Shown here in pieces: positions 13,992 through 18,499 of a stretch of 28,325 nucleotides of DNA. Under the pieces are notes generated by a model that had not been told where the DNA came from, searched no databases, and worked only from the letters and a program-made list of their open reading frames with translations. The translations under genes were made by a program, and so were the position numbers. This DNA comes from Pirellulales bacterium (GTDB lineage Bacteria > Planctomycetota > Planctomycetia > Pirellulales > JAICIG01), in NCBI GenBank assembly GCA_025924495.1, contig JAICIG010000033.1:1-28325 (forward strand), in the 5' to 3' direction. How positions within the stretch are numbered: the first letter of the stretch is position 1; each line of letters opens with the position of its first letter.

Positions 13992-15404
13992 TCATTGCAA
14001 ATCTTCCCGGAGCTCCGATGAGGGGCGCACTGGTTCAAGTTCGCGAGCCCGAGGTCCGGCAAGAAACGTCGTCCATCGGCGCTCCCAGGCGTCACAACAT
14101 TGAAAAACGTGCTGGAAAGGCTGCACGAGATAATCGTTCAACCAGGCATCGAGATAACCGCGCTCGATTGCCAGACGATAAAACCGGACCTTCAAGGTCG
14201 AGCCGTGCGCGCGAGGCAGCTGGGCTCCGATGGCGTTTTCCAGCAGGCGGTAATCGAGCAATAACGTCGGGGCGCGCACGAACTGCAGCGTGCGCAGGCA
14301 GCCGTGACCGATGATGTGGACGAGCGCAACGTAACGGAAACCCAAACCGATTTCAGCCACAATCAGGCCGACTTGCGTGAGCGAGGCGAATGACAAAGCG
14401 CTTTTGATATCGGTTTGCACCCGTTCGGCATACGCAGCGAATGCGGCGGTCGATAGCCCAGCAACGACAACGGCGCCGCCCAGCCAGGGAGAAAGATCGA
14501 GCATCGGACTAATGCGAAGCAGCAGAAATGCTCCCAGATGAACGGAGAGGGCGCCGTAAAAGATGGCGCTGGAAGGCGTAGGTCCTTCCATGGCCCGCGG
14601 CAGCCAACCGGAAAAGGGCGTCATCGCCGACTTGCCTGCGGCAGCCAACAATAACAACAGTCCGACGACGAGCGCCTGATGTTGGGTCATGGCGGCCTGG
14701 CCCAAGGGCCACGGATCGGCGCCGAGCAATTTATCGAAGTCGCCTTCGCCCGTCAGATGATGCATGACGACCGCGGCGACCAGCAGCGCCGCATCGGAAA
14801 TGCGATAGACGCACCAGACCCACAATCCATTGCGCACCGGCGCCTGGCGATCCTGGTAAAAGGCCACCAGCAGCGCCGAGGAAAGGCCGACCAACTCCCA
14901 GCCGGCGAACAAGGTTTCAATCGTGCCGGCCAGCGAGGTCGCCACCATGCCCAGCAGGAACAGCACATAGAACATGAAGAAGCGATTGAATCCGGGCTCG
15001 CGATGCAGATAGCGACTTCCGAAGGCGCCGACCGTTCCGCACAAGACAAACGACAAGATCACGAAAGGCACGGAGAGCCGATCAAAAACCAGCTTGATGG
15101 AGAAGTGGTAATGGCGAATGTGCACCCAATCGCCCAGCTCGAGCGAGACGTGCCGCGTCCCTAGCGCTAACATCAAGCCCAAAATGGCCAACGACGCGGC
15201 GAGTCCGGCGATAATGCCGGCCTGCACGCAACGGCCAATGACGCGTTCCGGCAGCGGGCGGTCGAGCAGCGTGGAAATACCCAGCACCGACAGCAGCGTA
15301 ACGGGAGCGCCGACAACGGTCAGCCCCAGCGCCTTGATCGCGAATTCATGGTCAAACATAACGAGGCCAATCGCGTCGGCGGGGGCCGACTTCTGATGGT
15401 TCAA
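13992..15404 (-). CDS. dabB: NuoL/MrpA-like membrane subunit DabB of an inorganic carbon transporter
   Basis: This 470-residue protein is an antiporter-like NuoL/Mnh-type subunit with about 11-13 hydrophobic helices. Landmarks are AGWELVGLSSALL (Glu170, the TM5 glutamate), GKSAMTPFSGWLPRAMEGPTP (Lys258, the broken-helix lysine region), VQTDIKSALSFASLTQVG (Lys334) and HIIGHGCLRTLQFVRAP (His363/His367). These match the proton path of the NuoL family. The length and the adjacent dabA identify it as DabB rather than a complex I subunit, since no other nuo genes are nearby. DabB couples proton (or sodium) flux to DabA. A TTG start at 15404 overlaps the dabA stop (TTGA), favouring translational coupling. 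The alternative ATG at 15359 begins MFDHEFAIK. Neither start has a strong ribosome site. The last ~60 residues are polar and cytoplasmic. Confidence 0.88.
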   Translation of the reverse strand: MNHQKSAPADAIGLVMFDHEFAIKALGLTVVGAPVTLLSVLGISTLLDRPLPERVIGRCVQAGIIAGLAASLAILGLMLALGTRHVSLELGDWVHIRHYHFSIKLVFDRLSVPFVILSFVLCGTVGAFGSRYLHREPGFNRFFMFYVLFLLGMVATSLAGTIETLFAGWELVGLSSALLVAFYQDRQAPVRNGLWVWCVYRISDAALLVAAVVMHHLTGEGDFDKLLGADPWPLGQAAMTQHQALVVGLLLLLAAAGKSAMTPFSGWLPRAMEGPTPSSAIFYGALSVHLGAFLLLRISPMLDLSPWLGGAVVVAGLSTAAFAAYAERVQTDIKSALSFASLTQVGLIVAEIGLGFRYVALVHIIGHGCLRTLQFVRAPTLLLDYRLLENAIGAQLPRAHGSTLKVRFYRLAIERGYLDAWLNDYLVQPFQHVFQCCDAWERRWTTFLAGPRARELEPVRPSSELREDLQ

Positions 15405-18400: not shown

Positions 18401-18499
18401 CGCGCCGGCTTCCGAGATTATCTTCTCGACATGCAGAGCCATTTGCCGCTGCGGCGACAAGGACGGTTGGGAGTCGCTCTCAATCATTGTTGGCTGCAT
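15401..18499 (-). CDS. dabA: DUF2309 (UPF0753) protein DabA, zinc-dependent inorganic carbon uptake subunit
   Basis: The protein has 1,032 residues from the ATG at 18499. The frame runs upstream to 18715, but that 72-residue extension is not family-like, and MQPTMIESDSQ is preceded by AAAGGC. DabA resembles beta-carbonic anhydrase; with DabB it captures CO2/bicarbonate vectorially in the cytoplasm. The zinc ligands defined in Halothiobacillus DabA (C351, D353, H524, C539) are present here as Cys513 and Asp515 in MFCLDAREE, His701 in FFGHCSSSLNN, and Cys716 in AYDCGACTGN. The C-D spacing of 2 and H-C spacing of 15 are the same. The usual GHG is GHC here (Cys702). Other landmarks are HGRRPPEQ and the SLLGVMNGAASDLRSGLPWQ block near the C-terminus. 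It is transcribed before dabB with overlapping ends; the reverse order is more usual in described pairs. Confidence 0.93.
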   Translation of the reverse strand: MQPTMIESDSQPSLSPQRQMALHVEKIISEAGALLPMPGPLTAFGFLNTLQGLEHLPFDEGMRKGARLYGCEPYLSESRYRQKLARGRILPADLSAVLWETLGNLAEEFVGSLATRFRLRLAMLQHPLHFGSPQELRWFVETEAFTRLAPDAPPDFREKFIEDTRHWLVRDLNDGDAEQQNRSDHGARQLLADLIPRFGDSAVEGWHEPTEKWEGLSLKVLWRVCCDVAARVDIPRPARPSFIRHRDALKRATGEDSDVQVNDLLIRFCAAFADQGLARTTLPYREAGFFQAFCKLYGSPGGPPERWRKGLTGALADLQRTGMTAAESVLESLRLLGVAEEEWEDFIQATLLALPGWAGMLWQMETRSDRVPLAVPQGTLVEYLAVRLILEQFALSSLASESLNYHGPLAGLRRAATAKIEPGSTTSVEQRAMNLFQLAQVLGWSPPALYRLGRHHASALFAEIEGFSELERRWVFHQAFERRLRIRALDAISLHGRRPPEQVAAPRFQAMFCLDAREESFRRHIEELAPDVETFGAAGFFGVAMYYRGVADAHFAALCPIVVKPQHWVVEDAVYTHDELNRRRAKTRRALGTATHQVHLRSRSVAGGMLLTAGVGVLASFPLVARVLFPRLTARIRRQIGGLVAAPSSTRLRLERIAETPGPEDGQIGYTVEEMAGTAERMLRDTGLTSNFARLVLFFGHCSSSLNNPHKSAYDCGACTGNAGGPNARALAAMLNDVRVRELLAEQGLEIPHETVFLGGLHNTAAESVKFFDLELLPKSHFRDFDAAREILEHACRRNAHERCRRFDSAPTDLSFEAAHRHVEDRSEDLAQTRAEFGNASNALCFVGRRARVRGLFLDRRCFLTSYDPTQDDAEQTILARILSAVVPVCEGINMQYNLSYIDSGGWGCGSKLPHNVASLLGVMNGAASDLRSGLPWQGVEIHEPVRLLFVIETAPQAMLDIMERNPVIGRILKNGWAQLALLDPHSAQLQEFKNGDFVAYDLEAEELPRASSSTTWYHGWRDHLEFAAIGN

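Follow-up and report, generated by a model that had tools for sequence, protein, structure and literature searches.

A DabA and NuoL-like gene pair from a Pirellulales bacterium, placed by sequence in a second branch of the DabA family

Described DabA complexes and the Pirellulales locus

In the DAB2 complex of Halothiobacillus neapolitanus (PDB 9rd0), a DabA protein with a beta-carbonic-anhydrase-like fold is joined to a NuoL-like partner, DabB2. Its zinc is held by Cys351, Cys539 and His524, and the water on the zinc is held by Asp353, which is paired with Arg355. Changing the membrane finger residue Glu444 to Ala or Gln abolished activity, and Leu658 was Leu in all 150 DabA2 homologues sampled, at a place where ordinary beta-carbonic anhydrases have a Gln or His which aids catalysis (PMC13144422). 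In the partner, Ile151 replaces Glu144 of NuoL, and putting a Glu there halved growth yield (PMC13144422). Here we describe a related gene pair, dabA and dabB, found in a 28,325-nucleotide stretch of a Pirellulales bacterium (assembly GCA_025924495.1, contig JAICIG010000033.1; hereafter "the window"), which by its sequence belongs to a branch of the family lacking both Glu444 and Leu658.

Two other descriptions are relevant to this pair. The COGNAT paper of 2017 grouped as clade C those loci in which a nuoL homologue lies downstream of ybcC (COG3002); genes for NuoM and for a sulfate permease were called frequent neighbours, and NuoM not universal (PMC5700660). The paper predates the carbon-uptake function, and its available text holds no residue analysis of the present kind. 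In the cyanobacterial NDH-1MS complex (CupA, NdhF3, NdhD3), a CO2 hydration protein is carried on a NuoL-like subunit beside a NuoM-like one, and the ion pairs of NdhF3 are kept where it meets NdhD3 (PMC6981117).

The pair in the window comprises the following genes, dabA being first and dabB second:

15401..18499, minus strand: dabA (PF10070/DUF2309), of the branch called type II below, 1032 aa from ATG 18499; Pfam DabA score 773.6 bits (gathering cut-off 25 bits)
13992..15404, minus strand: dabB, encoding the NuoL-like partner; 455 aa if started at ATG 15359, the likelier start, or 470 aa if at TTG 15404

An initial annotation, made from the letters of the window, had described a DUF2309 protein with a NuoL-like partner, and Pfam profile searches confirmed that both genes are real and correctly positioned, the partner matching PF00361 (126 bits) and PF00662 (37.6 bits). 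Among the matches listed, the closest homologues of the window DabA were planctomycete wherever they were named. The overlap of stop and start as TTGA, which had also been described, depends on starting at a TTG which is not the start in relatives: in an alignment, 111 of 119 partner homologues began at or close to Met16 of the window protein, 5 earlier and 3 later. Because relatives start there, we place the likely start of dabB at the inner ATG 15359, 41 nt past the dabA stop, and the overlap was dropped as a sign of tight coupling.

Zinc site and membrane finger in two branches of DabA

A tree was built from 47 chosen DabA sequences after removal of columns 444 and 658 (13 of the 120 proteins from a wider profile search were used and the two halves of L126 were left out). 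A single branch with support of 100/100 separated the 17 rows carrying Glu444 and Leu658 from the 30 others. We call these groups type I and type II, labels which were coined in the present analysis; DAB2 falls in type I. Judged by its sequence, the window DabA is a member of type II, a deep second branch, and not of the DAB2 type.

Type II was examined in 199 DabA sequences, comprising the window protein, 80 open reading frames (ORFs) of 79 related loci and 118 proteins from a protein search. The 79 loci were retained from the best 80 of 348 confirmed matches to a DabA alignment and all bear planctomycete titles, some of the genus names in which we take to be planctomycete. The protein homologue sets were the best 120 of thousands for DabA and likewise for the partner. 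It should be noted that the DabA and DabB sets were selected for their closeness to the window and that near-identical members may be shared. The following features of the window DabA were placed by alignment, with the roles of Cys513, Asp515, Arg517 and the 658 position taken from DAB2 (PMC13144422):

16961..16963, minus strand: Cys513, zinc ligand (DabA2 Cys351)
16955-16957, minus strand: Asp515, dyad residue (DabA2 Asp353)
16949-16951, minus strand: Arg517, dyad residue (DabA2 Arg355)
16397..16399, minus strand: His701, zinc ligand (DabA2 His524)
16352..16354, minus strand: Cys716, zinc ligand (DabA2 Cys539)
16628..16690, minus strand: membrane finger, residues 604-624, without an acidic residue and with Ala613 at the place of the essential DabA2 Glu444
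15983..15985, minus strand: Asn839, corresponding to DabA2 Leu658 and to the beta-carbonic anhydrase Gln/His

Cys513, Asp515, His701 and Cys716 had been annotated as four zinc ligands; all are where they were said to be, but only the Cys, His and Cys bind zinc in DAB2 and the Asp does not. The zinc-site residues (C, D, R, H, C) were intact in all 199 type II proteins, and a structure model of the window DabA matched the beta-carbonic anhydrase fold. The DAB2 structure 9rd0 was not among the structural matches of this model and may postdate the structure library.

The finger and position 658 set type II apart. Glu was found at the Glu444 column in 0 of the 199 sequences, which instead had Ala (162), Gly (20), Thr (8), a gap (5), Val (2), Ser (1) or Met (1), and the finger segment contained no acid in 196, the remaining 3 having one at the first residue of the segment. 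Position 658 was Asn in 156 sequences, including the window, and His in 43. In the wider DabA profile search, the best 120 matches had Glu444 in 0/120 and His658 in 120/120, and the names among them included Candidatus Kuenenia, Candidatus Wunengus, Vicinamibacterales, Gemmataceae, Runella, Larkinella and Rhodocytophaga. We take Candidatus Kuenenia and Candidatus Wunengus to be anammox bacteria. Type I and type II also differ in the alignment at the tunnel-gate positions Trp656, Leu629 and Pro704.

PF10070 was found in 17 of 149 planctomycete genomes in an evenly drawn sample, and type I also occurs within this group: planctomycete DabA proteins of L088, L089, L120-L124 and L134 all carried Glu444 and Leu658 (8/8). 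Both residues were likewise kept in 8/8 plasmid type I DabA. When plasmids were searched with a type II DabA, and likewise with the third gene described below, all of the matches listed were of <60% identity, and every DabA taken from them was type I.

NuoL-like partner, gene order and the third gene

Partners were compared in a set of 177 DabB (the window, 119 proteins and 57 loci). Two features of the window partner are of particular relevance:

14895..14897, minus strand: Glu170 of dabB (TTG numbering), equivalent to NuoL Glu144 and absent from type I DabB (alignment)
13995..14291, minus strand: tail of dabB after the 11th helix, about 100 aa without a transmembrane segment, aligning with the start of the NuoL lateral helix (alignment and model)

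Glu170, Lys258 and Lys334 had been listed in support of a DabB, and all three are present at those positions, but Glu170 is a mark of NuoL and not of DabB. The NuoL Glu144 equivalent was Glu in 177/177 type II partners and in 10/10 planctomycete NuoL-family proteins but in 0/14 type I DabB, and its presence therefore does not point to a DabB of the kind already known. The window partner has equivalents of NuoL Glu144, Arg175, Asp178, Lys229, Lys305 and His334/338, and its best PDB sequence match was NuoL, at 141 bits versus 76 for DabB2. It differs from NuoL in having Tyr for His254 and Arg for Lys342, in lacking the last membrane helices and in being paired with dabA. The protein ends after about 11 helices, so that DabB helices 12-15 are absent (alignment and model), as is NuoL helix 12 with Lys399; no complex I genes were found nearby. 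The tail was without a membrane segment in 175 of the 177 type II partners, against at least 3 such segments in 14/14 type I proteins and 1-4 in NuoL rows, several of which were clipped by locus ends.

In the partner tree the type II proteins formed their own clade (100/100), placed next to NuoL with support of 87/82; a clade uniting them with DabB was not rejected by the approximately unbiased test (p value 0.178). After divergent rows were added (7/12 new type II and 4/6 new type I rows were taken, and NuoN and 8/14 earlier partner rows left out), the position beside NuoL was held at 87/50. The branch leading to the planctomycete partners was very long, at 4.05 changes per site, or 2.63 with the divergent rows. 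Placement of the partner inside complex I was considered, and the tree does not decide on it.

These comparisons make it unlikely that the pair is what the initial annotation saw, a complete two-subunit, proton-gradient-driven, CO2-hydrating pump working like DAB2. The protein families are the same, the Cys-His-Cys zinc site and Asp-Arg dyad are intact and the partner retains the cytoplasmic-side proton residues K258, K334, H363 and H367. However, the finger Glu444 that is essential to DAB2 is Ala613 here and Leu658 is Asn; in the partner NuoL Glu144 is kept, the place of DabB2 His260 is taken by Tyr and that of Lys347 by Arg (each in 177/177 type II partners), and the last membrane helices are missing. 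The window DabA is also longer (1032 aa, versus 870 aa in the PDB chain), the gene order is opposite to that of type I loci and relatives of the window retain a third gene. What stands of the earlier claim is a role in inorganic carbon metabolism, which is supported because the zinc site is intact throughout type II, the beta-carbonic anhydrase fold is matched and SulP-type transporter genes lie within 8 kb of dabA in 21 of the 79 related loci; the complete two-gene pump of the DAB2 kind is not supported.

It had been remarked that described pairs usually place dabB upstream. This holds for type I, in which dabB preceded dabA in all 16 scored loci: 8/8 plasmid loci, 7/7 planctomycete loci (L151, L153-L158) and one staphylococcal plasmid locus. 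An eighth type I planctomycete locus, in genome G055, was too short for order to be scored. In type II, dabA came before dabB in 61 of 62 loci counted directly, the 62nd (L024) having dabB behind a second dabA on the same strand, and the same order was seen in 12/12 further pairs (L142-L150, L152). The dabA-first order is thus the rule across the window's own branch rather than an oddity, and it was dropped as an unusual property of the window. The planctomycete genome G147 has one locus of each type, with opposite gene orders.

Adjoining dabB in type II loci we found a third gene, mostly encoding 470-510 aa and belonging to the PF00361 family, for which the best NCBIfam match was NuoM (115.8-158.7 bits in the four tested, under the model cut-off of 263.8). 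It followed dabB in 53 of the 54 related loci in which dabB was complete and had 600 nt or more of sequence behind it, where partial third genes (L005, L007, L050, L065, L079) were scored as present and L024 as without one, and in 8/8 further type II loci (L144-L150, L152; 79-1003 bits). In a 49-row set which excludes those partial genes and includes L057, its start overlapped the dabB stop by 4 nt in 35 cases. The third subunit is a changed antiporter subunit, because NuoM Lys234 is Arg in 48 of these 49 and NuoM Glu144 is replaced. Six of seven type I planctomycete loci gave no match to the third gene, and the 43-bit match of the seventh, L151, falls on its own dabB.

The DAB1-type three-subunit DAC (H. 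neapolitanus; Nitrobacter locus L083) resembles type II in having an extra membrane protein and, at L083, a DabA of similar length (1037 aa). It differs in that dabB comes first, Glu444 and Leu658 are present and the 254-aa middle protein fails the type II third-subunit profile (E value 4). At L153 (genome G116), a DAB1-like type I locus, the dabB frame runs to 848 aa and its tail weakly matches the third-subunit profile (24 bits); this long frame is possibly a fused extra subunit.

Type II fits COGNAT clade C in gene order and neighbours, and on this ground we take the two to be the same set. The window shares with that clade a dabA upstream of the nuoL-like gene, and many related loci also have NuoM-like or sulfate permease neighbours, but neither was found in the window among the ORFs tested. 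The reversed order and the third gene are therefore not new, having been described in 2017, when the carbon function had yet to be recognised (PMC5700660). No account of the matched residue pattern, of the shortened partner or of a link between these and DAB coupling was found in the open-access literature searched, in which residues are not searchable as such.

Several loci depart from the usual arrangement. L142 (genome G059) and L143 (genome G132) each have a pair of type II dabA genes transcribed away from each other, and behind each dabA lies a NuoL-like partner of 653 or 665 aa with extra C-terminal membrane segments; one of these tails matches the third-subunit profile at 43.9 bits. The only third-gene matches at these two loci (49-52 bits) fall on the partner itself, whose longer tail partly substitutes for the third gene. 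One DabA of L142 is 87-91% identical to Candidatus Kuenenia and Candidatus Wunengus proteins (P0242, P0243, P0245). A dabA without a downstream dabB is found at L010, L015, L017, L027, L028, L029, L037, L043, L044 and L057, all of which retain the zinc-site residues. The third gene directly follows dabA at L057, and genome G006 has a dabB-third gene pair on a different contig from its three dabA genes; separation and reshuffling therefore occur in the type II branch. The same genome (loci L024 and L159) also has a dabA-dabB pair without a third gene that faces another dabA.

In the window the region following dabB is as follows:

13969..13995, minus strand: ATGA junction, the start of the third gene in relatives; in the window it opens an 8-codon frame, MRPAHSPF, followed by a stop (alignment)
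13360..13991, minus strand: place of the NuoM-like third gene of relatives, with none found here (tblastn and profile search)
11473-13359, minus strand: phosphate-selective porin O/P (Porin_O_P) gene, directly downstream of dabB, where relatives hold the third subunit gene

No third gene was detected in the 28-kb window by tblastn with 49 third-gene proteins (the best matches fell on dabB, E value 2.6e-4) or by a profile search with filters off (best E value 0.068, in the dabB frame). The description of the pair as complete is thus doubtful, and the window copy is probably an incomplete locus, the third subunit of this organism presumably being encoded elsewhere or lost. It is rather improbable that the locus is reduced or decaying, such that deletion of the third gene has left either an inactive complex or a carbonic anhydrase without coupling. 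The near-universal presence of the gene in scorable relatives would agree with such a loss, as would the kept ATGA junction and the short frame, whose His, Pro and Phe lie at conserved places of the third protein's start and which is possibly a weak remnant of the gene. However, a remnant of only 8 codons may be due to chance and the gene may lie elsewhere, while dabA and dabB are both full length and have kept all of the conserved residues that were checked.

Mechanism and physiological context

We consider it probable that the window encodes the DabA and NuoL-like subunits of a second DAC/DAB branch, forming a CO2-hydrating, gradient-driven complex with complex I-like coupling, whose third subunit has here been lost or lies elsewhere. 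DabA would most likely form bicarbonate from CO2 on the cytoplasmic face, at a zinc site of the beta-carbonic-anhydrase type, with an ion gradient driving this hydration one way. The native type II complex would have three subunits, with protons flowing via the NuoL-like and NuoM-like pair and not via the DabA finger, much as NdhF3 and NdhD3 serve CupA. By analogy, type II may work like the NDH-1MS layout; NDH-1MS differs in that it is driven by electron transfer and in that the fold and zinc site of CupA are unlike those of known carbonic anhydrases (PMC6981117).

Some observations weigh against this interpretation. Replacement of Leu658 in DAB2 by Gln or Asn did not impair growth, and in vitro the Gln variant was inactive (PMC13144422); Asn or His at 658 alone therefore proves nothing, since mutating this residue did not by itself free the enzyme. 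Subunit make-up varies, as 10 of the 79 related loci have dabA without dabB despite at least 1 kb downstream, and the third gene, which may have been displaced in this organism, is absent from the window. The structure models are of middling confidence (mean predicted local distance difference test scores of 71.9 and 73.4). Beta-carbonic anhydrase family domains were found in 10/10 DabA-bearing planctomycete genomes searched, with 2-5 matches per genome, at least one of them over the cut-off in each and some lying in frames of about 770 aa, as long as SulP fusions; a need for the complex is therefore doubtful.

Reverse running of the complex, in which the NuoL-like and NuoM-like subunits would pump ions outward, powered by an exergonic reaction at DabA, is very unlikely, as bicarbonate dehydration yields little energy at cellular concentrations and NuoM Glu144 has been lost from the third subunit. 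It was proposed for the YbcC family in 2017, before the function was known (PMC5700660), and the pump-type ion-pair residues and two antiporter-like subunits of type II would suit it, but those relatives that have been characterised take up and accumulate inorganic carbon (PMC13144422). Cotransport of sodium and bicarbonate, the function proposed for staphylococcal MpsAB, is likewise very unlikely: MpsABC, of the same broad family, complemented an Na+/H+ antiporter-deficient E. coli (PMC6689103), but DAB2 gave no rescue of a strain of this kind and does not need sodium (PMC13144422), and MpsAB is a poor guide to type II because a staphylococcal DabA has the residues and gene order of what looks like type I, although its finger alignment is uncertain.

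With regard to physiology, the favoured complex may, as the initial annotation had proposed, supply bicarbonate for anaplerotic carboxylases in the window's organism. As had been noted before, RuBisCO, carboxysome and complex I families (the partner itself aside) were not found in the window, in a scan of 20 of the 76 ORFs listed. RuBisCO family PF00016 matches were present in 4/10 DabA-bearing genomes, two at 211-213 bits with a GxDFIKDDE motif and two at 65-68 bits; these matches, which may be true RuBisCO or RuBisCO-like proteins, were set aside as a sign of autotrophy. The window is not among the 21 loci with a SulP-type gene near dabA. At L031, three SulP transporter genes lie upstream of dabA (2371-9903), the first of which is fused to a C-terminal beta-carbonic anhydrase domain.

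Further genes identified in the window by family matches were:

19379-21118, minus strand: SBP56 family gene (718.7 bits), lying upstream of dabA in the same orientation
21166-25285, minus strand: WD40 protein, DUF1501 and PSCyt2/PSD1 genes in a row
4117-9051, plus strand: penicillin amidase family gene, then a P-type cation ATPase gene

The SBP56 gene is related to methanethiol oxidase, with a score under the cut-off of that model.

For the family as a whole, we tentatively suggest, as a possibility that we rate below the reading of the window itself, that DabA proteins serve two machines. In type I the finger Glu would complete the proton path; type II, with no finger acid and a polar residue at 658, would be coupled via a complex I-like pair of NuoL-like and NuoM-like subunits, as an independent counterpart of NDH-1MS without electron input, in planctomycetes (anammox bacteria included), Bacteroidota and others. 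The DAB2 structure of 2026 explains coupling by Glu444 and treats Leu658 as invariant, and the type II branch is without both in every row scored; in planctomycetes it adds a second antiporter-like subunit. The two branches would thus be natural variants which make ion-driven, one-way CO2 hydration testable, and G147 carries both types.

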